From contig JAUPFP010000061.1 of assembly GCA_036925085.1 (NCBI GenBank), positions 361,001 through 425,000 of the forward strand: 64,000 nt of DNA. The letters run 5' to 3'. The notes under the pieces are model-generated. The model made no database searches, was not told the origin of the DNA, and saw only the letters and a program-made list of their open reading frames with translations. The translations under genes were made by a program, and so were the position numbers. Below, in pieces: positions 5,334 through 63,349 of this stretch. The DNA is from Brachycybe producta (taxonomy: Eukaryota > Arthropoda > Diplopoda > Playtdesmida > Andrognathidae). The stretch's first letter is position 1, and the number at the start of each line of letters is the position of its first letter.

Positions 5334-5337
5334 AAAT

Positions 5338-5861: not shown

Positions 5862-5986
5862 ATTTTTTCCTAAACAGTTCTTAGTCATTCTCCAGTTTCA
5901 TTCAATATACCAGAATAGTGGATGATTTAGACGGTGTTTTGAGGACTTCATATATACTATATTTTATATATGCAATAGTAAAAAAA

Positions 5987-43859: not shown

Positions 43860-44067
43860 TTTTCTTTCATTGTTACATGCGTATGCAAATGTACACACGT
43901 GCGCGCATGTGTATGCACATGTACGCACAAGCCATTGCGAACCGGACCTTACCGAACCGGCCCTTACCAAACCTCGCCGAGCAAACCTTACCTAGTGAAA
44001 CCTAACCTAATCGAACCTTACCTAACCTAACTTAATGAAACCTAATCTAACATAAACTAAACTTAAT
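43860..44067. repeat. Alternating purine-pyrimidine tract and CCTAA-rich stretch
   Basis: 43870-43930 is nearly pure alternating purine/pyrimidine (TACACACGTGCGCGCATGTG), prone to Z-DNA. 43940-44060 is built of AACCTTACC and AACCTAACC units, a degenerate relative of the arthropod telomere repeat TTAGG. The retrovirus-like element inserted at its right edge. Confidence 0.6.
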
Positions 44068-45588
44068 GACCTGTTAGGTGTTGAAAAAATAAGTAAAGCA
44101 ACACCTAACAATAATTTGAAAGAGGGGCAGAAATTAGTAAAAGAGAAAATTAAAATAAAGTAAAAAGAGAAAGAGGCGGAGCTAGAAAGAGAAACAATGA
44201 AAGAGAAGTAAAAAAGAGAAGAAAAAATGAGGAAATAAAAAATGGCGGGAAAGTAGTAGTAAAAGAGGGGGTGGATAAAGTATGAATGAATCACACCCAC
44301 ACACACACACTCATAGTAAACAGAGGCAAAAAAGGGAGAGGCTGAAAAAAGTAAAAGAAACCCACCCACCCATAAGAGAATGACGAAGCAAGAAGAAAGT
44401 CAAAGAAAGGGGGGAAACAAAAAAGAAACCCACCCACACAAGTAAAAAGTAATAAAAAGTTTTTAAAGAAAACAAGAGAGGGGGGAAATAGAAAGACTAA
44501 ACCCACCCACACACACTTTAGAAGGGTGAGCCCAAATAAGTGTACCATGTTAAATAAAAACTTTTTTACAAAATTAAATGTAATTAAAGAATGAAAAGAG
44601 TGGAAAACATACTATAAAGTGTAATAGATAGATAGATGAAGTGGTTAATTAACCTGATATAATCTGATTACCTAGTGGAGTGTAAAATAAGAGAAAAGTA
44701 AAGTTGAACAATGAAAAAGTTTAAATGTGACACTTAAAGAAGAAAAACATATGGTTTATACTTCATACTCACACGGTAGAAGACCACCTGTTTTACAAAT
44801 AATTATGACGTCATTATAGAAAAAAAAATAAAAAGAAAGAAGGGATGGAAAAAGTGTAACAAGATACTTTTTACCATACACTCTCTTCAATATGCAAAAC
44901 AGCAAAGTAATAAAAAGTTTAAAAGAAAAAGTAAAGCACATAACAGGTTCTCAACACATTAAGAAAAGGGCCGTTAATAATATATAGAGTATATTGAAGA
45001 CTATAGAGAGGAAACTTATGAATGAGTATAATGAAATGAATGGAACAATATGTGAAGTCAAACATAACCCAAAAGAGGTACCGACAAGTAGCGAAAGAGT
45101 TGTATGATGTTAGGGTTCTCAACAGAGTAGGGGTAAAAGGGCCAAAATCGTATTTAAATAGAAATACATTTCGGAGGGCCTAGAAAACCAAATAAAGGAA
45201 CATTGGGAATGTTAGTCATTCAAATGAAATGTTATGAGTTGCCGAAAACTAAAACTTTCGATGAAAAGTTAAAAGGTTAACTATACTAATTCATAGAAAA
45301 TGACGGTTAGTGGAAATAACAGTATGTATCGACGATCGTAAAAAATTTATAAAAAATCCAAATTGTAATTTTACGACCGGATGCATATTAGGCAGATGTT
45401 CGTAGAAGAAGATCAAAAGCCAGTTGACCGATTGGTTATTTTAATTTTAGAAAATTAATTCTAACCAATCAGAATACTTAAAATTCATTTCTGACTAAAC
45501 AAGATGCGATGAACATCGTATTCTAGAGAGAGTCCTACATTGGAGTTCTAGAAGAGAGGACATATGTTATAGATTTAGTAAAAAGAAA

Positions 45589-45948
45589 GAAGTCATTTGG
45601 ACTTAGAATTATTTTGAATTGAGTTTGTGAAGTCATTTAGACTTAGAATTATTTTGAATTGAGTTTGTGAAGTCATTTGGATTTAGAATTATTTTGAATT
45701 GAGTTTGTGAAGTCATTTAGACTTAGAATTATTTTGAATTGAGTTTGTGAAGTCATTTGGACTTAGAATTATTTTGAATTCAGTTTGTGAAGTCATTTAG
45801 ACTTAGAATTATTTTGAATTGAGTTTGTGAAGTCATTTGGACTTAGAATTATTTTGAATTGAGTTTGTGAAGTCATTTAGACTTAGAATTATTTTGAATT
45901 GAGGTTGTGAAGTCATTTGGACTTAGAGTTGTTTTGAGTTGAGTTTGT
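45589..45948 (+). repeat. 40-base tandem repeat in the 5' LTR
   Basis: Nine copies of GAAGTCATTTGGACTTAGAA followed by TTATTTTGAATTGAGTTTGT. TTTGG and TTTAG variants alternate strictly, so the true period is 80 bases. The last copy has drifted. The 3' LTR repeats it exactly at 62661-63020. It lies just upstream of the AATAAA and may be enhancer material. Confidence 0.9.
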
Positions 45949-46070
45949 GAAGTGTTTTGAGAAATAAACCTAGGAGTTGGTTTTTCATGTAATTTGGATT
46001 TTGAGTCTGAGACCAGGAAAGTGTTTTCACGAAGCTATAATTCTCCGAAGACAACAAGAAGCCATCTAAG

Positions 46071-46076
46071 GTAAGG
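46071..46076 (+). promoter_or_regulatory. Major 5' splice donor of the element
   Basis: TCTAAG/GTAAGG matches the metazoan donor consensus closely. It lies after the AATAAA and about 200 bases before the end of the 5' LTR. Matching acceptors precede the first small ORF (TTTTCCAG/G, 48028-48029) and env (TTTATTTCAG/A, 57033-57034). Confidence 0.6.
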
Positions 46077-46282
46077 TTAACAACTCTTGTTATCTTTATT
46101 AGGCCCAGTCCAAGAAAATTAAAAAATTACTACCACTCACTGATAAACTACAAAACCCATTCCCTACATAAGCCTTCATTGGCTGGGAGGGTCGAACCCT
46201 AAACCCAATAGGTACTATTTGGCTGAAAGGGGAATCACAGAACACCACTGTGATAGCCGTGAAAACGGAAACTTACAAAAAG

Positions 46283-46300
46283 TGGCGCAGTCGACAGGAT
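46283..46300 (+). promoter_or_regulatory. Primer-binding site, tRNA-Ser type
   Basis: TGGCGCAGTCGACAGGAT, five bases inside the LTR. Its first 11 bases equal the site I recall for the Drosophila 297/17.6/ZAM group, which pairs with tRNA-Ser. The implied tRNA end is ATCCTGTCGACTGCG plus CCA. Confidence 0.85.
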
Positions 46301-48029
46301 TAGTTAAAAAATCGGTTGGGTGGTTGAATTGTTTTATTAGAAAGTTTTGTGGCAAAGCAATTGGAACATTAGTTGGGGTTTTGGGATGGCAATTTGATTT
46401 TTAGAGTGTATTTTATTGAAGTGTATTGTCTTTTTCCTATTATTTGGTTGGGCTAAATTTGGATAAATAAAATTAGTTTGAGTTCAATTGGGTTGGATTG
46501 ATTTTTTTTTTGTTTGGTGTTTAAATAATTCATTAGTTGCTTTGGTTAACAGTTGGGTTATTTTAAAGAAGTTCAGTTGAGACAATTGAGTTGTTTTGAA
46601 GCTTATATGGTCAAAGTTAATTGAAGTTATTAGATTATGTTGATTGGGATCTAAAAAGTGAATACATGAAAAAATTTTTTTTGGATTACAGAATAAATTG
46701 TGCATGCTTACCTTGTTTTAAAATTGATGAACAAAGAGGTTAAAGAAATGAGTATTGAGTGATAGACAGAGTTGGATTAATTTATGAAGTAAAACTGAGA
46801 ATAATTTGCATGTTCTAGGGAGAATTGATTTTTAGAAAGCTGATTGAGATATTTTATGAATTTTAATTGTAATTTTTTAGGGGTGAATTGGAATTGCGAT
46901 TAACATGAGAAAATTAATTGAATTTTGAGAAAAGTTAATTGATTTGCTTCATTAAGTGTGGAATATCTTATTTGTTAATGTGTGAATTGGCTAATTCAGA
47001 AAAACTAAAAAATTTTTGGGTTTGGATTAATTAGGGTTATTTGAGGAATTCAACTGATTGCTTATTTTGGAATTAATTATATCAAATAACATTTGTGGCT
47101 AAAAGATACTAGAAGATCTTTCACAACTTAAATGGGATTATTTTCAAAATTTTGAAAATTATTTGTATCTTAATGAGTTTTGAATTTTTGTGTTTAGTAT
47201 TTAATCTTTATTAAAATTGTAGAACCCTGCAAAATATTATTTTCTTGGGTTACTATAGGAGAATTATTGTTTGCAACTAAAACCTTTTTATTTTATGTAT
47301 CTAAGACTGTTTTGTTTCATTTTTACCAAAATTGTCGAGGTTTGTCTAGTACAAGAATTGGACTGGACAAACATAGAAATAGCAATCGAAGAGATTGCTT
47401 ATTTCTTTATTGCTTTATGGGCAATTAAAGCATTCTGGGGTTAAATAAAAATACTTACTGGTGAACAAAGAAATGAGCTGGAAATTGTTAGTGTATTGTT
47501 GCATAAAGTTAACTGACTTGTTCTGGTTTAGAGGATTTGATTGGGAGGAGGTAGATATTACTGCTAGAGACCTCATTTATCTTTGTGTTCATCTTATCAT
47601 GGTTAAAATACTTTGGGGTTAGAAGATAATGAAATTTGCAAGTCAATTAATGGTTTAATGAAAAAAAAAAAAATTTCTGGAAGATTCTTAGGTTTACCCA
47701 TATTGTTGTTGTGAGTGGATATGTTGAGTACATTATTATTGATTTTGATCAAGATTTTTGGGGGTCCTAAAAGAGATTAAGTGGCCTATTAAGTGCATGA
47801 TTAAATTAAGTCATATTGCCTGAGTTGTTTTGTTTCAATTGTTTTGCAAATTGTTTTTGTATTGTACTTGTTTTTAAGATTTGCTCCCAACACACATACG
47901 CACGCTCCCATACAGAATTGCATACATAATTGCGCATAAAGTAATTAATTGATTAATTAGGTAATCGATTAATGGGCCTTATTAGAGTGTTTGGGGGGAT
48001 GAAAGAATCGTAATAATGCTCTTTTCCAG
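46301..48029 (+). other. AT-rich leader, probable intron of the spliced RNAs
   Basis: 1.7 kb without a coherent ORF, T/A-rich and with many stops. It is bounded by the donor at 46071 and an acceptor at 48028-48029. The packaging signal should lie here. Confidence 0.5.
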
Positions 48030-48032
48030 GTT

Positions 48033-48464
48033 ATGGCCGAAGCACCAGAAGACCGTAAACTGAACAATTTTAAGCCAGTGTGCAGAGTTTCCCCTAGAAT
48101 TATAACGGAGGAAGAGTACCGAGAGCGACGAGAAAGATTCATCGACGAGGCGGAATTAGCGTATCACTTACTCTTGGCTAACCTAAGACCGTTGGCGGGT
48201 TACCAGTCGGTACGATTTAGCTTGCCGTCTCCGGTGAGCCCAACACCGAGTTCAATACCAAGTCCAATACCAAGTCCGATACCAAGTCCGGTACATTTTT
48301 TGGAGAGTGGAGTGGCACAATTTTATCTTCACGGAACTCCAATCTTTAACGTGAGATCGGATCTTGCTGGTTTCATCGCACCTCCTTCGTCTCCCGTGGA
48401 AAGAGAACCACCGGAGCCACAGGACGAACGATTGGCAGACGACGGATTGCCATATCACGTTTAA
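48033..48464 (+). CDS. Accessory ORF 1, Pro/Ser-repeat protein
   Basis: 143 residues beginning MAEAPEDRKL, three bases after a good splice acceptor (TTTTCCAG/GTT). The N-terminal 60 residues are charged and helical (EEEYRERRERFIDEAELAYH). Residues 68-87 are SPxP repeats encoded by 12-base units. The acidic tail ends DDGLPYHV. It lacks the Cys/His module of the ORFs that follow and shows no similarity to them. No family is recognised; codon use looks less AT-rich than in its neighbours. As first ORF on a spliced RNA it is the best translated candidate of the cassette. Confidence 0.65.
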   Translation: MAEAPEDRKLNNFKPVCRVSPRIITEEEYRERRERFIDEAELAYHLLLANLRPLAGYQSVRFSLPSPVSPTPSSIPSPIPSPIPSPVHFLESGVAQFYLHGTPIFNVRSDLAGFIAPPSSPVEREPPEPQDERLADDGLPYHV

Positions 48465-48500
48465 AGGTGATTATATATGTAAGGTTAAGAAAATTTGTTT

Positions 48501-48740
48501 ATGGATGAGTGCATGTTGCAGGACATTTGCATATTACCCTGGTGCCCATTAAGACCAGAGTGTAATATCATTGACTTGAGTGACATTGATGTTATTTTTG
48601 TATGTACTACACATTTGAGAACATTTGAGGGTGCCGAATATAATATTTGGATGAATGCTAAAGAATTAATTGTTTCCGTCCACGATTTATGGCAGATATT
48701 AGATGGATATTCCACTGATTTTGTAGGATTTGAAATATGA
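48501..48740 (+). CDS. Accessory ORF 2, CPx4C...CxxH protein, type I
   Basis: 79 residues from the ATG at 48501 (a second ATG four codons on would match its relatives' starts better). Module: LPWCPLRPEC, 13 residues, then CTTH. A helical C-terminal half follows (YNIWMNAKELIVSVHDLWQI). ORFs 7 and 9 are clear paralogues, with the same LPWCP(L/I)R start, NIIDL-type strand and EYxxWL helix. Three Cys and one His at fixed spacing suggest one bound zinc. Its stop overlaps the next start (ATGA). No known family is recognised. Confidence 0.75.
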   Translation: MDECMLQDICILPWCPLRPECNIIDLSDIDVIFVCTTHLRTFEGAEYNIWMNAKELIVSVHDLWQILDGYSTDFVGFEI

Positions 48741-49027
48741 GTTTTGTGGATGAATACGAGGTATCCTCAACCAATGATTTTGTATGCCCTTATAGTAATA
48801 TTTGTTTCAGAGCTCCAGATTTCTCAGACAATTCATATATGTGGAAGTGTATGAGCCACAATTACCTGTTTGATATTAGAGATTACCCATTTGTTGCACT
48901 AGGAAGACCTGGATCAAACAATTTAGAAGCAAGTATAGAATATAGTGAATTTTGTGAATATATTGGACAATTTATCATACATCCAAATCTGGTTGAAATC
49001 AAAAACTTTTTCAATAGCAGGAATTGA
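48737..49027 (+). CDS. Accessory ORF 3, CPx4C...CxxH protein, type II
   Basis: 96 residues, starting within the stop of ORF 2 (ATGA), an arrangement typical of coupled translation. Module: VCPYSNIC, 14 residues, then CMSH. The C-terminal part RDYPFVALGR, then YSEFCEYIGQ and a final NFFNSRN, parallels ORF 10 (RNYPEIAFGR, then LIDFNEYLSR and DFFVQRD), so these two are paralogues from opposite ends of the cassette. Confidence 0.75.
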   Translation: MSFVDEYEVSSTNDFVCPYSNICFRAPDFSDNSYMWKCMSHNYLFDIRDYPFVALGRPGSNNLEASIEYSEFCEYIGQFIIHPNLVEIKNFFNSRN

Positions 49028-49042
49028 GAAGAAGTAAAGATT

Positions 49043-49243
49043 ATGTGTAGAAAAAAATCTTTAGTAAGTATAACTTGTCCATTTAGTTTAAATTGTGTTT
49101 TTATTATAAAGAAAAGAGATAATTTGGTGAAGTGTGTTTGTCATCTTAATCATTTTCAAACTGAATACATTCAAAGTAATCGTGACTTGAAAGATAAGTT
49201 GGAAATTTTATCAGTAAAAAAGCATGAACTTAGAAGACACTAG
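49043..49243 (+). CDS. Accessory ORF 4, minimal CPx4C...CxxH protein, type III
   Basis: 66 residues: almost only the module (TCPFSLNC, 12 residues, CVCH) followed by a short charged tail (SNRDLKDKLEILSVKKHE). Overlaps ORF 5 by 20 bases. ORF 5 is its nearest relative. Confidence 0.7.
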   Translation: MCRKKSLVSITCPFSLNCVFIIKKRDNLVKCVCHLNHFQTEYIQSNRDLKDKLEILSVKKHELRRH

Positions 49244-49433
49244 TAGGAACATACCACAGTGCCCAATAGGTCCTTATTGCATTGTAAGATTTTTTCGAGA
49301 AAGTGGTCGAGTTAAGTGTTTTGTACATGATACCTGGTATCAGACAGAAAAAATCCCAGAGAAAATTATAATTAAAGAGACAAGTAATTTGAAGTTGAAG
49401 GTAATAAAGGAAGAGGAAAAGAAAGAAAGTTAA
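49224..49433 (+). CDS. Accessory ORF 5, minimal CPx4C...CxxH protein, type III
   Basis: 69 residues. Module QCPIGPYC, 12 residues, CFVH, then WYQTEKI and a Lys/Glu-rich tail ending KEEEKKES. The first module of ORF 6 (QCPIGPDC, CLTH, FWY) is very close, so ORF 6 may have arisen by fusing a second module to an ORF 5-like gene. Confidence 0.7.
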   Translation: MNLEDTSRNIPQCPIGPYCIVRFFRESGRVKCFVHDTWYQTEKIPEKIIIKETSNLKLKVIKEEEKKES

Positions 49434-49443
49434 GATATTTAGT

Positions 49444-49803
49444 ATGAGTGAGGATTATCAAACGAATAGGTTACAGTGCCCCATAGGACCAGATTGTATT
49501 ACTAAGTTTCATCGATCTATAGGACGGATTGAATGCCTCACCCATAAATTCTGGTATTTACCTGCAGATTACGTATACAGGTGTGCTAATCAAGGTTATT
49601 TCCCGATACAAGCTGTTGTTGATTGTACTGATCAAGACACTGAGGAAGACATTCGAAGAATAATTATAAGTAGATGGGAATCGTGTCCTTATGCTAGGAA
49701 TTGTGCCTTTGTAGCCATCACACAAAACGAAGCTCCAAGGGAATTCCAGTGCATTATACACGGAACAGTAATTAATACTCTTTTTAACGTAATCCATATG
49801 TAA
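49444..49803 (+). CDS. Accessory ORF 6, two-module protein, type IV
   Basis: 119 residues with two modules: QCPIGPDC, 12 residues, CLTH near the N terminus; SCPYARNC, 15 residues, CIIH near the C terminus. They are joined by an acidic linker (VVDCTDQDTEEDIRRI). The start lies just after an AG (ATATTTAG/TATGAG). ORF 8 has the same two-module plan and spacings (12 and 15). Confidence 0.75.
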   Translation: MSEDYQTNRLQCPIGPDCITKFHRSIGRIECLTHKFWYLPADYVYRCANQGYFPIQAVVDCTDQDTEEDIRRIIISRWESCPYARNCAFVAITQNEAPREFQCIIHGTVINTLFNVIHM

Positions 49804-49810
49804 AGAGGGT

Positions 49811-50035
49811 ATGGACTTAAATGTATTACCATGGTGTCCTATAAGACTTAATTGTGTAATAATTGATAGAAGAAACATAGATAACACATATGCTTGCCTT
49901 ACACACCAAAGAATTTTTCAGATAGAAGAATACGAAAATTGGCTTCAAGTTAGAACATTATTGACAACACTAGGTGAACTATTGCAAGATATATATAGCT
50001 TTTTCATAAGAATAGAAGAAGAAGAAAGTGTATAA
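49811..50035 (+). CDS. Accessory ORF 7, type I
   Basis: 74 residues beginning MDLNVLPWCPIRLNC, 13 residues, CLTH, then QRIFQIEEYENWLQVR and an amphipathic helix with an acidic end (EEEESV). Starts seven bases after the stop of ORF 6. Paralogue of ORFs 2 and 9. Confidence 0.75.
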   Translation: MDLNVLPWCPIRLNCVIIDRRNIDNTYACLTHQRIFQIEEYENWLQVRTLLTTLGELLQDIYSFFIRIEEEESV

Positions 50036-50094
50036 AGAATTCCAGTTATAGACAGAAAATATTATGGTTTATTAATGAGTGATATTTAAAGGGT

Positions 50095-50454
50095 ATGGAT
50101 TTAAGCATACAAAGGAAAAGGGAACGAGATGCCAATAGATGTCCTTTTGGGAAAAGTTGTAGTATAGTACACGAAGATTTTCAAGAATTTGTAACATGCG
50201 AAGTCCACAACGTAAATTTTGCATTTCCTGAGTATCTATACATGTGTGGTATAAATCCTAATGTAAACAGAGTAATTTTTGAGACTAAGTGTAAAAGTCC
50301 CTTAGAAGAACTTCAGTTATTAACAGATAGAATTGGTAATCATTGTCCATTGCATGACGAATGCTTTTTTGTCCTAGTTTCACCAAAAACTTGGCCTAAA
50401 CAGTATCAATGTGCAGTTCATCAAAAGATATTTAATGAACATTTGGGAGTATAA
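50095..50454 (+). CDS. Accessory ORF 8, two-module, type IV
   Basis: 119 residues, the same length as ORF 6. Basic N terminus (QRKRERDANR), first module RCPFGKSC, 12 residues, CEVH; second HCPLHDEC, 15 residues, CAVH, then QKIFNE. ORFs 6-7 and 8-9 form two tandem copies of a type IV plus type I pair. Confidence 0.75.
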   Translation: MDLSIQRKRERDANRCPFGKSCSIVHEDFQEFVTCEVHNVNFAFPEYLYMCGINPNVNRVIFETKCKSPLEELQLLTDRIGNHCPLHDECFFVLVSPKTWPKQYQCAVHQKIFNEHLGV

Positions 50455-50496
50455 AAAATAAAGGAAAAAAGCGTGTTTGTTTGAATTCTTAATAAA

Positions 50497-50733
50497 ATGA
50501 GTGTTGATTTAGAATTATTACCATGGTGTCCCTTAAGGTTTAGTTGTGATATTATTGATTTAACAGAAATAGAGAACATTTATGTGTGTCTCACACATCA
50601 TAGAGCTTTTCAAGTAGAAGAATATGAACTTTGGCTTCGTGTTAAACAGTTGTTAACCTCATTAAATGAATTATTGCATGAATTAGATGAATATTCCATA
50701 GAGTCAGAAATAGATATTGACCGATTTAGATAA
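50497..50733 (+). CDS. Accessory ORF 9, type I
   Basis: 78 residues: LLPWCPLRFSC, 13 residues, CLTH, then RAFQVEEYELWLRVKQLL. Nearest relative is ORF 7, then ORF 2. Confidence 0.75.
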   Translation: MSVDLELLPWCPLRFSCDIIDLTEIENIYVCLTHHRAFQVEEYELWLRVKQLLTSLNELLHELDEYSIESEIDIDRFR

Positions 50734-50766
50734 AGAAGTTTTATTGTCAGAAAATAATTTAGAATA

Positions 50767-51066
50767 ATGAGCGAGAATTTTAGTGATCAAGATAAGGTTT
50801 ATAGGTGTCCTGAACTAAAAAATTGTTTCAAAACACAGTGTCACCATCATAGACAAGATTATAGGTGGAAGTGTGTTACACATTATAGGCATTTTGATAA
50901 AAGAAATTACCCAGAGATAGCATTTGGGAGAGTTGCATGTTCATATGAAAAAGCAGTTAGAGAATTGATAGATTTTAATGAGTATTTGTCCCGCTTAGGT
51001 CACCCCGCAAAAACACAGGAAAGAATAGATTTTTTCGTACAAAGAGACTTAGAAGGGGAAGATTAA
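50767..51066 (+). CDS. Accessory ORF 10, type II
   Basis: 99 residues. Module RCPELKNC, 15 residues including an extra CHHH cluster, CVTH. The C-terminal half parallels ORF 3. Ends 31 bases before the gag start codon. The extra Cys and three His could allow a second metal site. Confidence 0.75.
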   Translation: MSENFSDQDKVYRCPELKNCFKTQCHHHRQDYRWKCVTHYRHFDKRNYPEIAFGRVACSYEKAVRELIDFNEYLSRLGHPAKTQERIDFFVQRDLEGED

Positions 51067-51097
51067 AGATTAAAATTAAAAGTTGTTTGGAAATTAG

Positions 51098-52309
51098 ATG
51101 GAAGAAGACAAAATGGCTTCCAATGATGGAGAAGTCGGTAACTCCAATGGTGGTGCAGAAGGTAACGCAAATACGAATCTTAACATGCATCACACAGGGT
51201 TAATTCCATATTTTTCTGGGGATGAGAAAGGACCATCCGCCAAAGAGTTTTTCGAGCAAATAGAAGGTGTAGCTAATTTAGCAAGATGGACAGAAGAGTT
51301 TCAGATCATTCTGATAAAATCCAAGTGCAGAGGTCCTGCTGCGGAATTTTTCAGAGATCATCCAAGCATTCGACAGATAAACTCAATTGAAGAGTTAAAA
51401 GCGTTGATGATACAAAGATTCGAGCCAATCGAACCTAAGTTGGTATCAATGCAGAAGTTTTTAGAAGAAAAACAGAGCAACACGGAAAGCGCTATTGAGT
51501 ATATTTCCAGAGTAAAGACCAGAGGAAGAGCCTTCACCGAGGAAAATCCCAGTGCCGACCAGATAGCAGTCAGAGATGGGATGATACAAAATCAAATCAT
51601 CAAAGGATTGCATCCAAGAATAAAAAGATTTGTACTTTCACGGAATCCTGCTGATTTGAACGAAACAATCAGAATCATTCTAGCGGAAGAAGAAAATGAG
51701 AAGTTGGTTCATGCGAAATATGGAATAAATGTGCTAGAGACGATTACTGAAGAAAAGGAGATGCTGAAGAAATTTGAAGAGAAATTAAAGCAATTGGATG
51801 CTCAGAGAACAAAAGACATTGCAGTATTGGACCAGAAGTTTCAAGAAAAAATAAAGGCTCAAGAGAATGCCAAGAAAGAGGAAGGAAGTAATCAAAGGAT
51901 GGATAAACGAAATGTTGAATGTTTCAGATGTCACAAGAGAGGACATTATGCTAATGAGTGTTGGTCAAAACCAACAATTCCACAGCAATGGAGAAATCCG
52001 AGTTACCCACAACCAAATTGGAATCAGCCACAAGCTTTTCAGCCTAATGGTAGAGCTCCTAATTTTGGAAATACACAGAGAAATGTGCAGATTGAAAGGC
52101 AGAGAGGCCAAGGATGTTATAATTGTGGGAAGATGGGTCATTATGCAAAGGATTGTAGAATGAAACAAGTCCAAAGACAAAGTGAACCCATAGTATGTTT
52201 TAAATGTGGAAAGCAAGGTCATTTTGCAAATGTTTGTAGATTAGGAGCAAGACAGAACCCAGGGAATCAGGTTCGAAGAAATCAAGCAAATGGTAGGACG
52301 GAAAACTAG
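51098..52309 (+). CDS. gag: Gag polyprotein
   Basis: 403 residues. A capsid-like helical region (about 30-215) reads IPYFSGDEKGPSAKEFFEQI, then GPAAEFFRDHP and SAIEYISRVKTRGRAF, as in Ty3/gypsy Gag. A coiled, Lys/Glu-rich stretch covers about 215-265. Three CCHC zinc knuckles (CFRCHKRGHYANEC near 274, CYNCGKMGHYAKDC near 340, CFKCGKQGHFANVC near 367) form the nucleocapsid. The pol frame lies at -1 and overlaps only the last 13 bases. GGAAAAC right before the stop is a candidate, though imperfect, slip site. It builds the particle and packages RNA. Confidence 0.92.
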   Translation: MEEDKMASNDGEVGNSNGGAEGNANTNLNMHHTGLIPYFSGDEKGPSAKEFFEQIEGVANLARWTEEFQIILIKSKCRGPAAEFFRDHPSIRQINSIEELKALMIQRFEPIEPKLVSMQKFLEEKQSNTESAIEYISRVKTRGRAFTEENPSADQIAVRDGMIQNQIIKGLHPRIKRFVLSRNPADLNETIRIILAEEENEKLVHAKYGINVLETITEEKEMLKKFEEKLKQLDAQRTKDIAVLDQKFQEKIKAQENAKKEEGSNQRMDKRNVECFRCHKRGHYANECWSKPTIPQQWRNPSYPQPNWNQPQAFQPNGRAPNFGNTQRNVQIERQRGQGCYNCGKMGHYAKDCRMKQVQRQSEPIVCFKCGKQGHFANVCRLGARQNPGNQVRRNQANGRTEN

Positions 52310-52347: not shown

Positions 52348-55300
52348 ATGTATGAAAACCGCGTCACATTAAACATTCTGAATGACACAACATGTCCTAT
52401 CTTTTTAGCTCAGTCGAAAAACAATCTGATAAAGATTCTATATGACACAGGAGCAGGAATATCGATAATTTCCAAATCCTTATTTGAAAAGATAAAAGGA
52501 CGGAAATCACGAGATATAAAGCCTATCACTGATCAAGCTAAGGTTATAATTACCACAGCGAATGGTACACCATTTCGTACAAAGGGATTATATGAAATAC
52601 CCGTACGTATTACAGCAGAGAAAGTGGAAAAGGTTCCTTTATACGTGAGTGCAGAAGATTTGCCAAAGAAATATCAGATGATTTTCGGCATAGATGTGAT
52701 AAAGCAGTTAGGATTAACATATGAACCCTTGCTTGATGTAATTGGTTATAATGGGATGAAAATTAAGACAAGAAGTTTAGAGAAAAATGAAATGATTAAT
52801 ATGTTGCAGAAAAAGGGAGATAAAGAATGGATATTAGAAGTAGTAAGTAAAACGGAGACAGAGAATCAGAATCAATTAAGAAATTTTTTGGAGAAAAATG
52901 ATGATATATTTGCATGTTCACTTAAAGAACTGAAACCGACACCTGTTGTTGAACAAGAAATCCACATGGTGGATCAAGTTCCAGTTTTTATACGACCATA
53001 CAAGTTGCCACAGAAATCAGAAGTAGTTATGAAAGAGAAAATTGATGAGTTATTAGATGCAGGAATAATTAGACCATCGTTAAGTCCTTACTCAGCACCT
53101 TGCATGCTTATAGGAAAACCAGATGGGAGTCAAAGATTAGTTGTTGATTATCGAGCATTGAATTTAAAGGTAGTTAGTGATAAATATCCATTACCAGAGC
53201 TTTTGGGAGTAAGTAATCAATTAGGAGAAGCTGTTTATTTTTCTACTTTAGACATGGCAAGTGGTTTTTACCAGATTCCCATAACAGAAGAAGATAAAGC
53301 AAAAACAGGTTTTAGTACACCTTTTGGACACTATGAATTCAACAGATGTCCAATGGGACTAAAAACATCTCCAAGTGTATATCAGAGACTTATGGATAAT
53401 GTATTAGGTGATTTGAAAGGGAAAATTTGTTTTGTTTACATGGATGATATTATTGTATACAGTAAAACTATAGAGGAACATTATGAAAGGTTAAATTTAG
53501 TGTTTGAGCGACTTAGAAATGCAAACTTAAAAGCAAAACCAACAAAATGTTTGTTCCTACAGAAGGAAATAAACTATCTAGGACATACATTTACACAAGG
53601 GAAATTCCAACCAGGTGGAAAGAAAGTAGAAGCAGTAGAAAATTTTCCGAGACCAACAAGTGTCAAGAAAATACAAAGTTTTGTGGGATTAGTAAACTTT
53701 TATAGAAAATTTATTCCAAATTGTGCAAGTTTAGCAGGTCCATTAACAAAGTTGTTAAGTAAAGATACTCCATTTCTTTGGACAAAAGACTGTGAAGAAT
53801 CTTTTCAGAAATTAAAAGGATGTTTGATTACATATCCAGTTTTGATAATGCCAAATTTTGAAAGACCATTTTATTTGACTACGGATGCAAGTAATGAAGC
53901 AATCGGGGCAATCCTCGAACAAAAGATTGACGGTCAATTACACCCAATATCTTATGCGAGTAGGAAGCTCACCAAATCAGAACAAAATTATTCTACGACA
54001 TGGAAAGAGGCATTAGCATGTGTTTATGGTGTAAATTATTTTCGATATTACTTGATGGGAAGAAAGTTTACTCTTATCACAGATCATCAACCATTAAAAT
54101 ACTTGATGACTATGAAAAAAGATAAAGCTATGTTAACTAGATGGGCATTACAGTTACAACAATATGATTTTGAGGTTTTATATAGAAAAGGTAAAGAGAA
54201 TACTAATGCAGATGCTTTGAGTCGAAATCCTGTAGAAAGCAAAGAATTAAATGTGTTAAATGAACAAGAAACTTGGGAAGAACATGAGGTTGCTAAAGAT
54301 CAAGAAAATTGCGAAGAATTGAAATCTTTCATGGAATGTTTATATGGTTGTCCAGTAGATAAAAAGGTAAAAGAAAAAGTTGATAAGTTGGGTTTAGAAT
54401 TAAATACAAAAGGTTGGTTAGTAAAAAAATCTGAAAATAAAGTAAGAATTGTAGTTCCTTTGAGTAAAAGAAATTATGTGTTGAAAATGTGTCATGATAA
54501 TATTACAGCAGGTCATTTTGGTATTGAAAAAACAACAAGCAAAGTTGCAGACAGATTTTATTGGGAAACTTTAAAGAAAGATGTGAAACAATATTGTGAA
54601 GCTTGTGTATCGTGTAATCAGAAAAAGATTCCACATGGGAAAAGTCCATTATGTAAGTTCCCAGCACCATCCAAACCATTTGAAAGAATTGGAATGGATA
54701 TACTAGGTCCTTTACCTACTACACAGAATGGAAATAAATACATTGTAGTTATTTGTGATTATCTAACAAGATACCCAGAAGCATTTGCTATTCCAGATCA
54801 GAAAGCTGAAACCATTGCAAATTTGTTAGTAAGAGAAATTATTTCACGGTATGGTAGTCCCCAGACTCTAATAACAGACAGAGGTGCAAACTTTATGTCT
54901 GAACTTATGAAAAGTCTGTGTGAGACATTCGGAATTAAAAAGATTTTTACGTCAGCATATCACCCGCAAACAGATGGTTTAGTTGAGAGATTCAACAGGA
55001 CACTAACAACAATGTTATCACATTATGTTGATAGTTCACAAAGAAATTGGGATGAGGAACTTCCATTAGTATTGATGGCATATCGTAGTGCGATGCATTC
55101 AAGCACTAAGGAGACACCTTATTTTTTATTGTTTGGACAGGATATGAATTTACCATTTGATTTAATAGGAGATGAACCTCAGCCAGTGTACAACACTGAA
55201 GACTATGGAAAGGTAGTGGCAAATAGGATGCAGAAGATACATGATATAGCAAAAGAGAGTTTAGAAAAATCAGCAGAAAATCAAATTAGATATCAAGGAA

Positions 55301-56160
55301 AGAAAAGAAAAAATAAAGGAATACAAGTAGGTGAAAAAGTATATTTGAATGTACCACAAGTAGCACAAGGTAAAACGAAAAAATTAGCGAAGTTGAACAA
55401 AGGTCCTTATCGAGTCATTAGACAAACGTCACCTGTTAATTTTGAGATAAAGCACATGTATAGACACAAAGATGTACAAATAGTTCATGAAGAGAGATTA
55501 AGAGTAGTAAAAGGAAAAAATCCATGGGAAAAGATTGAGGACTGTACAGAAAAGGTGAAAGAACCTAAAGAACAAAGCAGAAAAGGCAAAAGGCCTAGTG
55601 AATCGAGTAATTCAAGTTCAGATGAAGATGATGAAGACAATGCAGATAAAATTGATTATTGTTGTGAAAAGGTACCTACAGTAAATACTAAGACACCTAA
55701 GGGAATTATTCGGAACACAGAAGCCGTACCCAGTACTAGTGGTTATAATTTACGAAGTAAAGGTTCCATACAGTTTGCTACGCCATTACCAGTAAGAACA
55801 AGAAGAATTACACCTAGGACAGAAGTATTACCTAGACTACCAGATCCACCTAGAGTTGAACCAGGCGAATCTGAAGATGAAGGAGATTTGAGTTTAGCAA
55901 GGTTACGTAAAAAGTTGCAAGAGATATTGAATAAAGGAAATTCTAGGGATACCCAAGAGGAAGATAGACATCCTCCAAGTATTTCGGAATCCCAAGAAAT
56001 TAGTGCATCAGAAGAAGAAATTCAGAGTGAACAGGATTCTATAGTTGAAGAAGATACTAGAAAAACTGGTCAAGAAGAGCCAGAAGATAATGTAGCAGGA
56101 CAATTGTTAGACAAGATGTTTAAATTAGTAAGTGTGATAGAAAGAATGAGTAAGAAATAA
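52348..56160 (+). CDS. pol: Pol polyprotein: protease, reverse transcriptase, RNase H, integrase
   Basis: 1270 residues from the first Met, but the frame is open from 52297, so it is probably made as a Gag-Pol fusion by -1 frameshifting. Protease active site YDTGAGISI (about residue 32). Reverse transcriptase with LDMASGFYQIP (about 300) and the catalytic YMDD (about 366). RNase H starting TTDASNEAIG (about 511). Integrase with an H-H-C-C zinc site (about 715-758), catalytic D (GMDILG, about 782), D (TDRGANF, about 844) and E (GLVERF, about 879), and a GPY/F-type module (NKGPYRVI, about 1016). The last 200 residues are an acidic Ser/Glu-rich tail with YNLRSKG, longer than usual. All catalytic motifs are intact. 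Confidence 0.95.
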   Translation: MYENRVTLNILNDTTCPIFLAQSKNNLIKILYDTGAGISIISKSLFEKIKGRKSRDIKPITDQAKVIITTANGTPFRTKGLYEIPVRITAEKVEKVPLYVSAEDLPKKYQMIFGIDVIKQLGLTYEPLLDVIGYNGMKIKTRSLEKNEMINMLQKKGDKEWILEVVSKTETENQNQLRNFLEKNDDIFACSLKELKPTPVVEQEIHMVDQVPVFIRPYKLPQKSEVVMKEKIDELLDAGIIRPSLSPYSAPCMLIGKPDGSQRLVVDYRALNLKVVSDKYPLPELLGVSNQLGEAVYFSTLDMASGFYQIPITEEDKAKTGFSTPFGHYEFNRCPMGLKTSPSVYQRLMDNVLGDLKGKICFVYMDDIIVYSKTIEEHYERLNLVFERLRNANLKAKPTKCLFLQKEINYLGHTFTQGKFQPGGKKVEAVENFPRPTSVKKIQSFVGLVNFYRKFIPNCASLAGPLTKLLSKDTPFLWTKDCEESFQKLKGCLITYPVLIMPNFERPFYLTTDASNEAIGAILEQKIDGQLHPISYASRKLTKSEQNYSTTWKEALACVYGVNYFRYYLMGRKFTLITDHQPLKYLMTMKKDKAMLTRWALQLQQYDFEVLYRKGKENTNADALSRNPVESKELNVLNEQETWEEHEVAKDQENCEELKSFMECLYGCPVDKKVKEKVDKLGLELNTKGWLVKKSENKVRIVVPLSKRNYVLKMCHDNITAGHFGIEKTTSKVADRFYWETLKKDVKQYCEACVSCNQKKIPHGKSPLCKFPAPSKPFERIGMDILGPLPTTQNGNKYIVVICDYLTRYPEAFAIPDQKAETIANLLVREIISRYGSPQTLITDRGANFMSELMKSLCETFGIKKIFTSAYHPQTDGLVERFNRTLTTMLSHYVDSSQRNWDEELPLVLMAYRSAMHSSTKETPYFLLFGQDMNLPFDLIGDEPQPVYNTEDYGKVVANRMQKIHDIAKESLEKSAENQIRYQGKKRKNKGIQVGEKVYLNVPQVAQGKTKKLAKLNKGPYRVIRQTSPVNFEIKHMYRHKDVQIVHEERLRVVKGKNPWEKIEDCTEKVKEPKEQSRKGKRPSESSNSSSDEDDEDNADKIDYCCEKVPTVNTKTPKGIIRNTEAVPSTSGYNLRSKGSIQFATPLPVRTRRITPRTEVLPRLPDPPRVEPGESEDEGDLSLARLRKKLQEILNKGNSRDTQEEDRHPPSISESQEISASEEEIQSEQDSIVEEDTRKTGQEEPEDNVAGQLLDKMFKLVSVIERMSKK

Positions 56161-57047: not shown

Positions 57048-59741
57048 ATGGCGTTCGATAAGATGATTGGAATTTTGCTGTTGTGGACGATAGCAGTCAC
57101 GGGACAGGAATATTACGACATCGAAATTTGTAATTGGAAGAAAGGTGAAAAGGTTTGCAAAGAAGCGGTTATAAACAGTCCGGAACCGTATTCGGATAAA
57201 ATGTGCCCGCAAAATGGTTGCAGAGAATGTATGGTTAAATGGGTTACAAAATTAATAAGTAAAGAGGGAAAAAGCGAATCAGCTGTAGAATTTCAAGTTA
57301 AGCAAACAGAAGAAACAAATGGTAACAGTGAAATGTATAAGTGCCAAAATAGAGGAATGCCATGTAGTTGTGCTAAAAATGATACTTGTTCAGGAACAGA
57401 ACAATATTGCAAAAGCACAAGAAAATGCGCAAGTAAGAAGACAGAATGTCATTGCGAAATAGTTCGAGCAAATACAAGATTAATACATGTGAACAAAAAG
57501 GGTATTGAATCAGAAGGATTTGAAATAATATCTTATAGAGAATGTTACTTCAACACATCTGAGTTAAAATATGGAAGGAAAAGAAAACGTATTGGGCGAA
57601 ATTTATTGGGAATGGATACATTCAAAATTGAGGAAGGGGTAAACTTCATCAAATTTAATGATCCCGTCATAACAGTAAGTGCAGAAGGCACAGTTATAAT
57701 TAGAAAAGACGGAGTAGAAAGAAGTTTACATGTGGGAAAAAAGAAACAGGTTATTATAAATCCTGAATTTGGTATGGAATCTGGTACCCTTCATATCATC
57801 TTCATTTCCACAGAAGGTCATATGATGGAAGGAAAGTTCCATATTGAAGGTAAAGATATATGTCACAGATTAAAATGTGTTTTATGTTATGAGTTTGTCT
57901 ATAATATTCAATGTATGCCAACATATCTAACATATGCTATAATCATATTATTGATGTTAATGACTAGTATTGTTGTTTTATATATCAAAGCAGTGTTGAA
58001 ATCATTATGGAATTTATTATCTTGGTTTATTATGTGTTCATTGTTTATATATCGTATTGGTAAAAAGTGTTTAAAGGTATCTATGGTTATTGGTGTCGCT
58101 AGTGGTCGATCCGTAAAAAATAAAGTCAAAAAGGTTAAAGATAAGTATGATGATTTGGAAACAGGTACTTTATCAAGAAATAGTATCCTGAGTCCAACAG
58201 TCATTACTATAATAATTTTGATAGGATTTTTATTAAGTTTGGTTTCAAGTGCACAAGCGAAATGCACAGAACATAAAATGATAAAATCACAAATTACTGA
58301 ATGTCAAGAAACGAATCAGGGACAAAAATGTTCCCTAGCCACATCAATACAGGTAACTTTAACCAATTTAGAGTATACTGCATGTTTATGGCTAACTGAT
58401 CATCAAGAAAACTATGTTGCAAGTGTTGAAATAAGATTTGAAAGTGTAAATTGTGAATGGCGAACGGAAAGATTATACTATACATTTCCAACCGAACTAT
58501 TCACTTTAAATCAAATTGCATGTCCTCAAAATAAGTATTGTGGATGGGGAGATCATTGTCACCCAGATTACAAATTTGAATTGTTAACTAAAGAAGCTTT
58601 AGATTGGCCAGGAGTAACAGATTGTTTTCCAGGTGATTCTGGAACTTCATGTTTTATTGCCAGTAGACAACCATGTCATCATTTCCGATGGTATTTGAAA
58701 CCTGATTATAAAAATGTATTTGAAGTAAGAAAAATTTCTAGTATGAAGTGTCACCCTAAAATAATATTGACTATTAAGAATAATGATACTGAGACAAAAT
58801 ATGCAATCCGGTCGGCAAAAGAAGTGCCCGATCAAATATATGTTGAAGTAGTTGGAGTTTTTGATCAAGCTACTGATATTATTTCCAAGCATTTGATAAT
58901 CAAACATGGGAATGGGTCAGAAGCTTATTTAGATACAGCTGCAGAATTCTCAAGACCCTATAGAGGCCAAATTGGGGATGTACAAGCTGGTGAAGCCATA
59001 TCAAAGGATTTTTTATTTGATAAAAGAATGGTAGAATGTAGTTTCTTTGAGTCACGAATGACTTGTACGAAACAACAATCATATCTAGAATTAATGATGC
59101 AAAGTAAAAGGAATCTAATACCTATGGCATTAACGAATCATAAAGTGTTTGTTGACAAAGAAGGCCGATTGAAATCTTCTTTAATTGTATCTAGCCCAGC
59201 AGTAGTACATTTAATAGTAGAAAACTATCAGGTCATATTAAGTACAGTTCGAGTGTGTCCCCGTATATTAAGAATAGTAGCTCATCAGGGGTGTTATTCT
59301 TGCTCAATATTAGCAGTAGTGCAAATTGAAGCAATTAGCACATGTTTTCCAGGAACAGTAACAATTACCTTTGAAGACATACCTATGAGTACCAGAGCTC
59401 TCACTCTCACTACTAGTGCCAAAATATATGATATACAGATACAGATTAGTAAAAAATGTATTTCCGATAAAGTGTGTTTACAATCGCGAGTTGGAGTGTC
59501 GTGCGAGAAATTTGAAGGATGCTTCGAAGAACCACAGTTGAATCTTCAAAGAACTTTCGATGCTCGTGTTACATCTGTTGGAGGATATTCTCCAGGCGAC
59601 GAATTTACGTTCTCATCAATCTTTCCAAACTTTTTGGGAAGCTTGGGATCTATGTTCTACGCTCCGTTCATGATCGGACTAAGTATATTAGGATCATGTT
59701 TTGTGTTTTCATGTGTGCTCAGCATGATGCGAATGAGATAA
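57048..59741 (+). CDS. env: Envelope glycoprotein, phlebovirus Gn-Gc-like
   Basis: 897 residues, 13 bases after a good 3' splice site. Signal peptide about 1-19. Cys-rich first ectodomain (about 20-290) with N-glycosylation sites and a basic cluster RKRKR near 177. Two membrane segments (about 293-314 and 319-337), a basic cytoplasmic loop, then a third hydrophobic segment (about 384-404) ending SSAQA, which looks like an internal signal. The second, Cys-rich ectodomain runs to about 870 with WGDHCHPD and CFPGDSGTSC clusters, and a final membrane segment covers about 871-893. This two-glycoprotein plan and the Cys pattern fit bunyaviral (phlebovirus-type) Gn/Gc, whose Gc is a class II fusion protein. 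The classical errantivirus env is instead baculovirus F-like. Assigned by layout and motifs, not by search. Confidence 0.8.
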   Translation: MAFDKMIGILLLWTIAVTGQEYYDIEICNWKKGEKVCKEAVINSPEPYSDKMCPQNGCRECMVKWVTKLISKEGKSESAVEFQVKQTEETNGNSEMYKCQNRGMPCSCAKNDTCSGTEQYCKSTRKCASKKTECHCEIVRANTRLIHVNKKGIESEGFEIISYRECYFNTSELKYGRKRKRIGRNLLGMDTFKIEEGVNFIKFNDPVITVSAEGTVIIRKDGVERSLHVGKKKQVIINPEFGMESGTLHIIFISTEGHMMEGKFHIEGKDICHRLKCVLCYEFVYNIQCMPTYLTYAIIILLMLMTSIVVLYIKAVLKSLWNLLSWFIMCSLFIYRIGKKCLKVSMVIGVASGRSVKNKVKKVKDKYDDLETGTLSRNSILSPTVITIIILIGFLLSLVSSAQAKCTEHKMIKSQITECQETNQGQKCSLATSIQVTLTNLEYTACLWLTDHQENYVASVEIRFESVNCEWRTERLYYTFPTELFTLNQIACPQNKYCGWGDHCHPDYKFELLTKEALDWPGVTDCFPGDSGTSCFIASRQPCHHFRWYLKPDYKNVFEVRKISSMKCHPKIILTIKNNDTETKYAIRSAKEVPDQIYVEVVGVFDQATDIISKHLIIKHGNGSEAYLDTAAEFSRPYRGQIGDVQAGEAISKDFLFDKRMVECSFFESRMTCTKQQSYLELMMQSKRNLIPMALTNHKVFVDKEGRLKSSLIVSSPAVVHLIVENYQVILSTVRVCPRILRIVAHQGCYSCSILAVVQIEAISTCFPGTVTITFEDIPMSTRALTLTTSAKIYDIQIQISKKCISDKVCLQSRVGVSCEKFEGCFEEPQLNLQRTFDARVTSVGGYSPGDEFTFSSIFPNFLGSLGSMFYAPFMIGLSILGSCFVFSCVLSMMRMR

Positions 59742-60307
59742 CTGTACTCATCTTTCACTATGAAACAACAGTGAAAGGGAGAAGACTATTTTCTCAATAT
59801 TGCATCTATAATATACATCGAGAAGAATTATCTACAACAACGATACTGTAGAAGTTGTGACATTTTACCAGGTGATAAAATCTGTGAAAATGTACCAAAA
59901 AAGACTTCTAAAACAGTTTAAAGAAAGACATCAAAGAAAAGATCAGCCCATGACATCACACAAAAAGATGAACATGGATGATTTCTAAACATCATAAAGG
60001 TTGGAAAGAAGGAAAAAATTCAAGACATCAGAGATGAAAAGAATCAAGACATCAATGAAGAGAGAATTCAAGACTTCTGAGAATAATTAAGAGAAGACAG
60101 CAGATGGACAGCGTGGAAGACCACAGGAATCCATATGATTAAAGGCATCACGAAGATATGAAGATGACCAAGTGTGATGGCACGAAAGACTGAATTTCTG
60201 AACTTATTTGTGAGTAGAGACTTAATGGAAATAGTGTGTTTTTAGATGTGAAATTTAAGGTGTTATTAGGTTAGATTTGATGGTTAGGATGTAACATTTT
60301 TGAGAGT

Positions 60308-60520: not shown

Positions 60521-60677
60521 AAGATGAAATTGATGTCGAAGGAAACAAGAAAATATGTGAACTTTATATATAGAACATAGAATGATGTTGCTTATAAACT
60601 AGTATTATATTAGTAGTATCCTGATTATCTAACAAAAACAGGGCTTATTTTAATATTACTTATATATTATTGGAGAT

Positions 60678-61143: not shown

Positions 61144-63349
61144 TGTTAGGTGTTGAAAAAATAAGTAAAGCAACACCTAACAATAATTTGAAAGAGGGGC
61201 AGAAATTAGTAAAAGAGAAAATTAAAATAAAGTAAAAAGAGAAAGAGGCGGAGCTAGAAAGAGAAACAATGAAAGAGAAGTAAAAAAGAGAAGAAAAAAT
61301 GAGGAAATAAAAAATGGCGGGAAAGTAGTAGTAAAAGAGGGGGTGGATAAAGTATGAATGAATCACACCCACACACACACACTCATAGTAAACAGAGGCA
61401 AAAAAGGGAGAGGCTGAAAAAAGTAAAAGAAACCCACCCACCCATAAGAGAATGACGAAGCAAGAAGAAAGTCAAAGAAAGGGGGGAAACAAAAAAGAAA
61501 CCCACCCACACAAGTAAAAAGTAATAAAAAGTTTTTAAAGAAAACAAGAGAGGGGGGAAATAGAAAGACTAAACCCACCCACACACACTTTAGAAGGGTG
61601 AGCCCAAATAAGTGTACCATGTTAAATAAAAACTTTTTTACAAAATTAAATGTAATTAAAGAATGAAAAGAGTGGAAAACATACTATAAAGTGTAATAGA
61701 TAGATAGATGAAGTGGTTAATTAACCTGATATAATCTGATTACCTAGTGGAGTGTAAAATAAGAGAAAAGTAAAGTTGAACAATGAAAAAGTTTAAATGT
61801 GACACTTAAAGAAGAAAAACATATGGTTTATACTTCATACTCACACGGTAGAAGACCACCTGTTTTACAAATAATTATGACGTCATTATAGAAAAAAAAA
61901 TAAAAAGAAAGAAGGGATGGAAAAAGTGTAACAAGATACTTTTTACCATACACTCTCTTCAATATGCAAAACAGCAAAGTAATAAAAAGTTTAAAAGAAA
62001 AAGTAAAGCACATAACAGGTTCTCAACACATTAAGAAAAGGGCCGTTAATAATATATAGAGTATATTGAAGACTATAGAGAGGAAACTTATGAATGAGTA
62101 TAATGAAATGAATGGAACAATATGTGAAGTCAAACATAACCCAAAAGAGGTACCGACAAGTAGCGAAAGAGTTGTATGATGTTAGGGTTCTCAACAGAGT
62201 AGGGGTAAAAGGGCCAAAATCGTATTTAAATAGAAATACATTTCGGAGGGCCTAGAAAACCAAATAAAGGAACATTGGGAATGTTAGTCATTCAAATGAA
62301 ATGTTATGAGTTGCCGAAAACTAAAACTTTCGATGAAAAGTTAAAAGGTTAACTATACTAATTCATAGAAAATGACGGTTAGTGGAAATAACAGTATGTA
62401 TCGACGATCGTAAAAAATTTATAAAAAATCCAAATTGTAATTTTACGACCGGATGCATATTAGGCAGATGTTCGTAGAAGAAGATCAAAAGCCAGTTGAC
62501 CGATTGGTTATTTTAATTTTAGAAAATTAATTCTAACCAATCAGAATACTTAAAATTCATTTCTGACTAAACAAGATGCGATGAACATCGTATTCTAGAG
62601 AGAGTCCTACATTGGAGTTCTAGAAGAGAGGACATATGTTATAGATTTAGTAAAAAGAAAGAAGTCATTTGGACTTAGAATTATTTTGAATTGAGTTTGT
62701 GAAGTCATTTAGACTTAGAATTATTTTGAATTGAGTTTGTGAAGTCATTTGGATTTAGAATTATTTTGAATTGAGTTTGTGAAGTCATTTAGACTTAGAA
62801 TTATTTTGAATTGAGTTTGTGAAGTCATTTGGACTTAGAATTATTTTGAATTCAGTTTGTGAAGTCATTTAGACTTAGAATTATTTTGAATTGAGTTTGT
62901 GAAGTCATTTGGACTTAGAATTATTTTGAATTGAGTTTGTGAAGTCATTTAGACTTAGAATTATTTTGAATTGAGGTTGTGAAGTCATTTGGACTTAGAG
63001 TTGTTTTGAGTTGAGTTTGTGAAGTGTTTTGAGAAATAAACCTAGGAGTTGGTTTTTCATGTAATTTGGATTTTGAGTCTGAGACCAGGAAAGTGTTTTC
63101 ACGAAGCTATAATTCTCCGAAGACAACAAGAAGCCATCTAAGGTAAGGTTAACAACTCTTGTTATCTTTATTAGGCCCAGTCCAAGAAAATTAAAAAATT
63201 ACTACCACTCACTGATAAACTACAAAACCCATTCCCTACATAAGCCTTCATTGGCTGGGAGGGTCGAACCCTAAACCCAATAGGTACTATTTGGCTGAAA
63301 GGGGAATCACAGAACACCACTGTGATAGCCGTGAAAACGGAAACTTACA
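61144..63349 (+). repeat. 3' LTR
   Basis: Same length as the 5' LTR and, by eye, the same sequence: start hairpin 61144-61182, tandem repeat 62661-63020, AATAAA at 63035-63040, donor at 63143. The copy of the donor could splice element transcripts that read through, or host transcripts, into downstream UGT 3 sequence. Confidence 0.92.

Follow-up and report, generated by a model that had tools for sequence, protein, structure and literature searches.

Small open reading frames (ORFs) ahead of gag are known from several long terminal repeat (LTR) retroelements. In MDG1-group Ty3/gypsy elements two of them, sORF1 and sORF2, lie between the leader and gag, and the available portions of that report describe peptides detected from these small upstream ORFs, no splicing, and a nuclear sORF1 product (PMC11952523). 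ZAM and Beagle elements carry a short peptide-encoding exon in the leader-gag interval, according to the part of the source available here (PMC12992720). In this work we analyze a stretch of 64 kb from Brachycybe producta (contig JAUPFP010000061.1, positions 361,001 to 425,000), hereafter the window, in which a Ty3/gypsy provirus holds in this same interval a cassette of nine related mini-protein ORFs built around one cysteine-histidine module. The original prediction for this stretch held that known Ty3/gypsy elements and errantiviruses have nothing between leader and gag, a statement contradicted by MDG1 sORF1 and sORF2 (PMC11952523) and by the ZAM/Beagle exon (PMC12992720).

The cassette resembles the MDG1 sORFs of Drosophila (about 70-110 amino acids (aa), translated) in consisting of small sense ORFs ahead of gag with low non-synonymous rates; MDG1 differs in having two unrelated ORFs, one helix-turn-helix-like and the other a FAST-like membrane protein, in elements without env, and the accessible text of that study describes neither a C-P-x4-C...C-x2-H module nor a multigene family (PMC11952523). 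With MDG1-type sORF2 the cassette ORFs share the sense position upstream of gag; none of the nine starts with MG, and they thus lack the MGxxxS/T myristoylation motif, which is also absent from two sORF2 proteins of MDG1 type (PMC11952523). The giant gypsy-like Burro elements of planarians, with BCL-2 and other apoptosis- and ubiquitin-linked domains and Env homology, recall the elements described here, but hold the domains within one giant polyprotein, and no zinc mini-protein cassette appears in the available part of their description (PMC6431247). LTR elements of bdelloid rotifers have likewise captured extra ORFs, which are common to unlike elements, but in the sections available these are ORF3 enzymes or env rather than an upstream paralogous cassette (PMC5408684). 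Accessory small ORFs ahead of gag are known in kind, and what is new is the make-up and scale of the cassette. A further point of comparison is Vif, a small, fast-evolving retroviral accessory protein with a zinc-binding motif (H-x5-C-x17/18-C-x3-5-H) and a BC box of the SLQ type, whose gene lies beside gag, pol and env. The cassette proteins are like such accessory proteins in size, rate of evolution, zinc-binding-type motif and position; their module, C-x5-C-x10-17-C-x2-H as a rule, differs from the HCCH motif of Vif, and their type A lacks the BC box.

Results

The cassette and its module

Between the leader ORF0 and gag, positions 48501-51066 of the window contain nine ATG-started sense ORFs of 66-119 codons (individual lengths in Table 1) with 11 modules, all of the pattern C-P-x4-C-x12..15-C-x2-H. 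The nine ORFs cover 93.5% of the interval, with neighbors spaced by -20 to +59 nt. Over both strands of the window the module occurs 11 times in total, always inside the cassette region, and none lies on the minus strand of 46501-51097. A first-order Markov model of the region, simulated 1,000 times, never produced the module and yielded on average 0.15 plus-strand ATG ORFs of 66 or more codons, with a maximum of 3, against the nine observed. The original prediction, which had described this number and size of ORFs and modules and a cassette starting at 48501, where an ATG is indeed found, was accurate on these points.

Besides the start methionine, the only columns without variation in the nine proteins of the window are C, P, C, C and H, in agreement with the earlier claim of an invariant CP pair and CxxH end amid otherwise varying residues; the same holds for 29 proteins from the window and its sister loci, which were chosen for having the module. 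The AlphaFold2 model of A3, with a mean confidence (pLDDT) of 83.8, has three short strands followed by a helix at residues 40-76; that of GH was set aside as poor (pLDDT 53.7). From the invariance of the ligands, the module is probably a small zinc fold with C, C, C and H as its four predicted ligands.

Sister families and slot identity

Twenty further loci were fetched from among the many module matches in the genome, selected by those matches and including two, L020 and L021, that are decayed relatives of family 1, to which the element in the window belongs. In 19 of the 20 the modules lie upstream of a gag match on the same strand, and L025 has a module with no gag match within its 9.9 kb. 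These loci define three sister families with largely intact members in the same genome and a cassette of the same kind and position: family 2 (L009-L013), family 3 (L014-L016 and the more decayed L017) and family 4 (L018 and the decayed L019). Ahead of gag, the order is G, B, a fused A+B (200-aa ORF), C, EF, ERDWDLQ ORF and GH in family 2; A, B, C, E, a Bcl-2-like ORF, A, ERDWDLQ ORF and GH in family 3, where L014 has an additional B-like ORF farther upstream; and B, A, C, EF, an 85-aa ORF and GH in family 4. The order C, E(F), GH is retained in all four families. Gaps between ORFs run from -74 to +28 nt in the sister families (-74 to +59 nt across the four), and the first GH module of family 3 reads C-P-x3-C.

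In a tree of 35 modules from 27 proteins, modules group by slot and not by family (split supports: G 0.92, B 0.87, F/H 0.81, C 0.62, A 0.50, E 0.00). The predicted paralogous family is supported; since modules of one slot group together across families, the duplication that gave rise to the slots is probably older than the split of the families. Charge also follows slot. Type A is acidic in 7/7 cases (six single proteins at -6 to -11, the fused A+B protein at -21), type B in 4/5, and type C is basic in 4/4; in 18 of the 26 proteins compared the charge does not exceed +1.6. Because the slots differ in this way, a common nucleic-acid-binding role is unlikely, and the slots probably differ in function.

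The ERDWDLQ ORF of families 2 and 3 carries an (E)RDWDLQ or EKDWDLQ motif and a basic C-terminus (L011:5774-6208, minus strand; L014:5260-5541; L028:2717-2950). The L011 and L014 examples have no credible Pfam match, and no such ORF was found in the leader of the window.

Conservation and rate of change

Searching the genome with A3 returned 93 matches; at 21 places, the window included, identity is 91% or more and A3 has no inner stop. Twenty-two other family-1 copies were read, partly or wholly, comprising 16 near-intact and six decayed ones (L020, L021, L037-L040), so that the near-intact set with the window numbers 17. E1, EF, GH and A3 are full length in all 17, and A2 has its usual module in an open frame of 66-89 aa in 16. 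A1 and B1 fall within only nine of the 17 stretches: A1 has 79 aa in eight of them and 75 aa in L031, where the stretch starts within the ORF, and B1 is open in eight.

Changes were counted in gap-free ORF alignments only, with A1 counted from 48510, three codons short of its start. In the 22 copies, 81 changes are synonymous, 109 are replacements and 4 introduce stops. With stops taken as replacements, the per-site ratio of replacement to synonymous changes (pN/pS) is 0.32 overall, 0.42 for near-intact and 0.27 for decayed copies, and that of the 5' part of gag is 0.13 (8 copies). The 55 ligand and proline codons show two replacement or stop changes, both in decayed copies, and none in near-intact ones. 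In family 3, pN/pS over all non-gag ORFs, including the Bcl-2-like one, is 0.22, 0.28 and 0.25, against 0.04, 0.13 and 0.25 for gag, the third comparison being with a partly decayed copy; in family 4, where one partner is decayed, it is 0.47 against 0.45. The proposal that selection preserves a probable metal site is thus supported, with pN/pS between 0.22 and 0.47 and ligand and proline codons unchanged in near-intact copies.

Between families, identity is 83-89% in the reverse transcriptase (RT) core, 57-67% in gag and 27-53% in the cassette ORFs, and non-synonymous divergence (dN) is 0.07-0.12, 0.23-0.37 and 0.34-0.84, respectively; pairwise dN/dS is unreliable at this distance, many pairs being saturated at synonymous sites. 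Compared with the element in the window, the sister families are 57-64% identical in gag and 83-89% in RT. The cassette changes faster than gag and RT, a gradient of the kind usual for accessory genes under changing selection.

Related Bcl-2-like ORFs in family 3 and a Polinton-like element

The family-3 cassette contains a Bcl-2-like ORF of 157 aa with a hydrophobic C-terminus (L014:4540-5013), and related ORFs placed in this family occur in L015-L017, L028, L045 and L046. The two best PDB chains for the L014 ORF, of Bcl-2/Bcl-xL type, score 0.0023 and 0.0037, and its relatives in L028 and L050 match the Bcl-2 profile at 9.6e-4 and 4.2e-4. At least 146 matches to the ORF exist in the genome, seven of them assigned to family 3 through a gag match or 88% identity. 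A second set at about 53% identity was read in four places (L047-L050), with no gag match within 1.5 kb. The 9.9 kb around the L050 place (L051) hold, at 4900-9899, a Polinton-like integrase, a poxvirus-A32-like ATPase and the Bcl-2-like ORF, with a RING-finger ORF adjoining the latter on the opposite strand; no module occurs on either strand of L047-L051. Matches near-identical to the L051 type are many in the genome. LTR and Polinton-like elements of this genome both carry related, predicted Bcl-2-like genes.

Searches for relatives

Against 5.8 billion proteins, A3 gave nothing at E<=1 by phmmer, and the 29-protein alignment nothing at E<=10 among 256 candidates scored. The search requires shared 5-residue words and short ORFs ahead of gag often go unannotated; absence from the database is therefore weak evidence about other species. 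A PDB profile search with cassette proteins returned one match at chance level (0.24), PHROGs three single-member matches only (0.015-0.098), and Pfam, with A1 taken from 48510, no match of a cassette ORF at the curated cut-off. No confirmed relatives came from IMG/VR when it was scanned with pol, env, gag, RT and type EF, or from prokaryote contigs scanned with gag, neither collection being made of insect genomes; the one type A match in IMG/VR (L052, a 184-kb contig) was short and antisense to other ORFs and was rejected as chance.

Known zinc-finger classes were considered and set aside. The CCHC zinc knuckle (C-x2-C-x4-H-x4-C) differs in spacing from all 11 modules, and zf-CCHC matched no cassette ORF. 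The CHHC finger of U11-48K and GTSF1 is C-x5-H-x9-H-x3-C; the cassette ligands are C, C, C and H, and zf-U11-48K gave no match at E<=10. The Vif-like combination was rejected because the first ligand of the module is C and no BC box matched in the seven type A proteins; three of 26 proteins have BC-box matches, all overlapping the module or the N terminus. The BH3 motif matched none of the 26. The part of the CC-licensed PMC literature covered holds no description of the module or cassette, with subscription papers and Repbase outside that scope. The protein family and its cassette are real and conserved, and apparently have not been described before.

Provirus architecture and flanking features

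The element carrying the cassette is a young Ty3/gypsy provirus with a phlebovirus-type env, its identical LTRs pointing to a recent insertion. LTRs, target-site duplication, gag, pol and env bear out the retrovirus-like element postulated around the cassette, and domain order, CCHC knuckles in gag, TG...CA LTR ends, a 4-bp target-site duplication, a primer binding site-like sequence and a polypurine tract place it in Ty3/gypsy (Metaviridae). Its env is of Phlebovirus G1/G2 type, in contrast to the F-type env reported, in the part of the source available, for Drosophila insect endogenous retroviruses (PMC12992720). The 120 pol relatives listed, of 3,719, include named sequences from ants, bees and a braconid wasp (42-49% identity), and the best-scoring named one is from axolotl (40%).

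Table 1. Features of the provirus and its cassette in the window (lengths in aa equal codons)
Feature	Position	Strand	Description
5' LTR	44072..46277	+	2,206 bp, TG...CA; GACC target-site duplication ahead
Primer binding site-like	46283..46300	+	TGGCGCAGTCGACAGGAT; presumably tRNA-Ser type
ORF0	48033..48464	+	143 aa; leader ORF without module; splice-acceptor-like CTTTTCCAG ahead
A1	48501..48740	+	79 aa; one module; acidic (charge -11)
B1	48737..49027	+	96 aa; one module; ATGA stop/start overlap with A1
C1	49043..49243	+	66 aa; one module; basic (charge +8); A-tract 49051-49057 after codon 2
E1	49224..49433	+	69 aa; one module; 20-nt overlap with C1
EF1	49444..49803	+	119 aa; two modules
A2	49811..50035	+	74 aa; one module; acidic
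GH	50095..50454	+	119 aa; two modules
A3	50497..50733	+	78 aa; one module; acidic
B2	50767..51066	+	99 aa; one module
gag	51098..52309	+	403 aa; CCHC knuckles; Retrotrans_gag-like match below cut-off
pol	52348..56160	+	1270 aa; protease-RT-RNase H-integrase, Ty3/gypsy order
env	57048..59741	+	897 aa; Phlebovirus G2 1.5e-29; weak G1 match 4.1e-5, below cut-off
3' LTR	61144..63349	+	same sequence as 5' LTR; purine tract GGGGGTAGGGA ahead, GACC behind

Several repeats accompany the provirus. Both LTRs contain a tandem array of nine 40-bp units (45589-45953 and 62661-63025); about four 60-bp repeats, each with a GGAC-T-GTCC inverted repeat, occupy 56377-56650 between pol and env; and three 77-bp units lie in tandem at 60307-60544 between env and the 3' LTR. 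A degenerate AACCT (TTAGG-type) array adjoins the provirus on the left (43984-44060), and TTAGG telomere arrays are present in the genome assembly (295 Mb, 442 contigs). Directly to the right, 63501-63719 weakly matches the C-terminal region of hAT transposases (0.0096, below cut-off). Elsewhere in the window, inverted repeat pairs at 1462-7381, with arms 92-98% complementary around some 4.3 kb, are perhaps a foldback element, and two identical 300-bp direct repeats 9.6 kb apart (20647-20946 and 30236-30535) are perhaps the LTRs of another recent element.

Discussion

We put at roughly even odds (a probability of about 0.5) the interpretation that the cassette comprises polycistronic accessory genes for small zinc-folded adaptors, most likely host antagonists. 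Each ORF would yield a protein of 8-14 kDa with one or two predicted zinc-folded modules; behind the module there is in most cases a tail particular to the slot, for instance the acidic, leucine-rich helix of type A. The slots would have arisen by duplication before the family split and specialized afterwards. The adaptors would bind host proteins that act against the element in cell death, RNA silencing or the innate response, blocking or redirecting them, and in one sister family would work beside the Bcl-2-like protein, whose presence in the cassette points to host antagonism as a putative role. Paralogous expansion, fast change, a fixed metal-site pattern and this Bcl-2-like neighbor together are best fitted by host-directed adaptors, and the slot-specific charges, type A being acidic and type C basic, argue against one common nucleic-acid function.

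The close packing of the ORFs suggests that they would be translated from the full-length RNA by coupled termination-reinitiation. Between the end of the LTR and ORF0 the leader contains 26 ATGs, and up to gag there are 78, so that simple scanning can hardly feed gag, whose translation calls for an internal mode, reinitiation or a spliced RNA. We infer reinitiation on one long RNA, for which MDG1 offers a precedent.

Several observations weigh against host-directed adaptors. B2 is not full length in 3/17 near-intact copies (14/17 have it whole), and the ATG of C1 is in frame with its module in 12/17 and out of frame in 5/17, because an A-tract differs in length, from about 6 to about 22 A among otherwise near-identical copies (window 49051-49057; L001-L008, L029-L036). 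This variation could be real slippage, transcriptional slipping or assembly error; as both ORFs are broken in some near-intact copies, the element can perhaps do without C1 and B2, or slippage may occur at the C1 tract. The original prediction named randomly broken ORFs in other copies as evidence against it; most ORFs stay open in near-intact copies, with C1 and B2 broken in some. The 16 near-intact copies show 26 synonymous and 47 replacement changes, a weak synonymous excess whose p value is 0.002 at a transition bias (kappa) of 1, 0.009 at 2, 0.083 at 4 and 0.13 at 6; the neutral expectation turns on this bias. Ratios near 1, likewise named beforehand as adverse, were not obtained (0.32, 0.42, 0.22-0.28 and 0.47), with significance in near-intact copies confined to low assumed bias. 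The fast evolution of the cassette also fits relaxed constraint, and the L014 Bcl-2-like ORF matches PF00452 (E 1.9e-5, 25.6 bits) below Pfam's 31.4-bit cut-off. In some families EF and GH carry a positive charge (+9.9, +9.0), as would suit proteins that bind nucleic acids.

The main alternative, which we regard as unlikely, is that the cassette proteins target RNA or Gag of the element itself, in export, splicing control, packaging or chaperoning, in the manner of retroviral Rev and NC. All four type C proteins and some EF and GH proteins have the expected charge, and the cassette adjoins gag. There are precedents in CERV of Cer1 in C. elegans, needed for genomic RNA export in the available part of that account (PMC10309623), and in the nuclear MDG1 sORF1, as given in the accessible text (PMC11952523). 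Against this stand the acidity of type A (7/7, the fused A+B protein included) and type B (4/5), and the Bcl-2-like neighbor, which suggests a host-directed region; nor would one regulator need nine diverged paralogues in varying copy number.

A role in virion make-up or cell-to-cell transmission, comparable to MDG1 sORF2, is improbable. The position is that of MDG1 sORF1 and sORF2 and the elements carry env, but env is thereby already supplied, the lack of an MG start in all nine proteins leaves them without an N-myristoylation signal, and inspection by eye, with no predictor run, showed no transmembrane stretch. Slightly less credence still goes to captured host genes carried as weakly used cargo: accessory ORFs of other retroelements are often captured, as far as the available parts of two reports go (PMC6431247; PMC5408684), and L025 has its module apart from any gag match, but gag stands beside the modules in 19/20 of the loci read out of many module matches, searches of the protein database gave no homologue, and the slots are retained across four families. 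That the ORFs are a by-product of a non-coding leader kept for RNA structure or regulation is very improbable, since broken C1 and B2 frames in some near-intact copies are outweighed by the depletion of replacement changes in the pooled data and family 3, by the 55 unchanged codons of near-intact copies, and by the persistence of the frames between families that have diverged almost to saturation at synonymous sites.

Conclusions

LTR retroviruses of insects are usually pictured as gag-pol-env elements, with silencing by PIWI-interacting RNAs (piRNAs) as the main answer of the host. Host-directed adaptors would alter this picture, and we advance tentatively, with rather less confidence than in that interpretation itself, the broader proposal that invertebrate retroelements have evolved a viral-style counter-defense toolkit of slot-conserved zinc mini-proteins, and that an anti-host gene pool, of which the shared Bcl-2-like genes would be part, moves between unlike elements. 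If this is true, some such elements carry a counter-defense set comparable to that of complex retroviruses or large DNA viruses, built on an independent fold. As the proteins are small and defined, their host partners would be directly findable, and whether invertebrate retroelements fight back would become a testable question.

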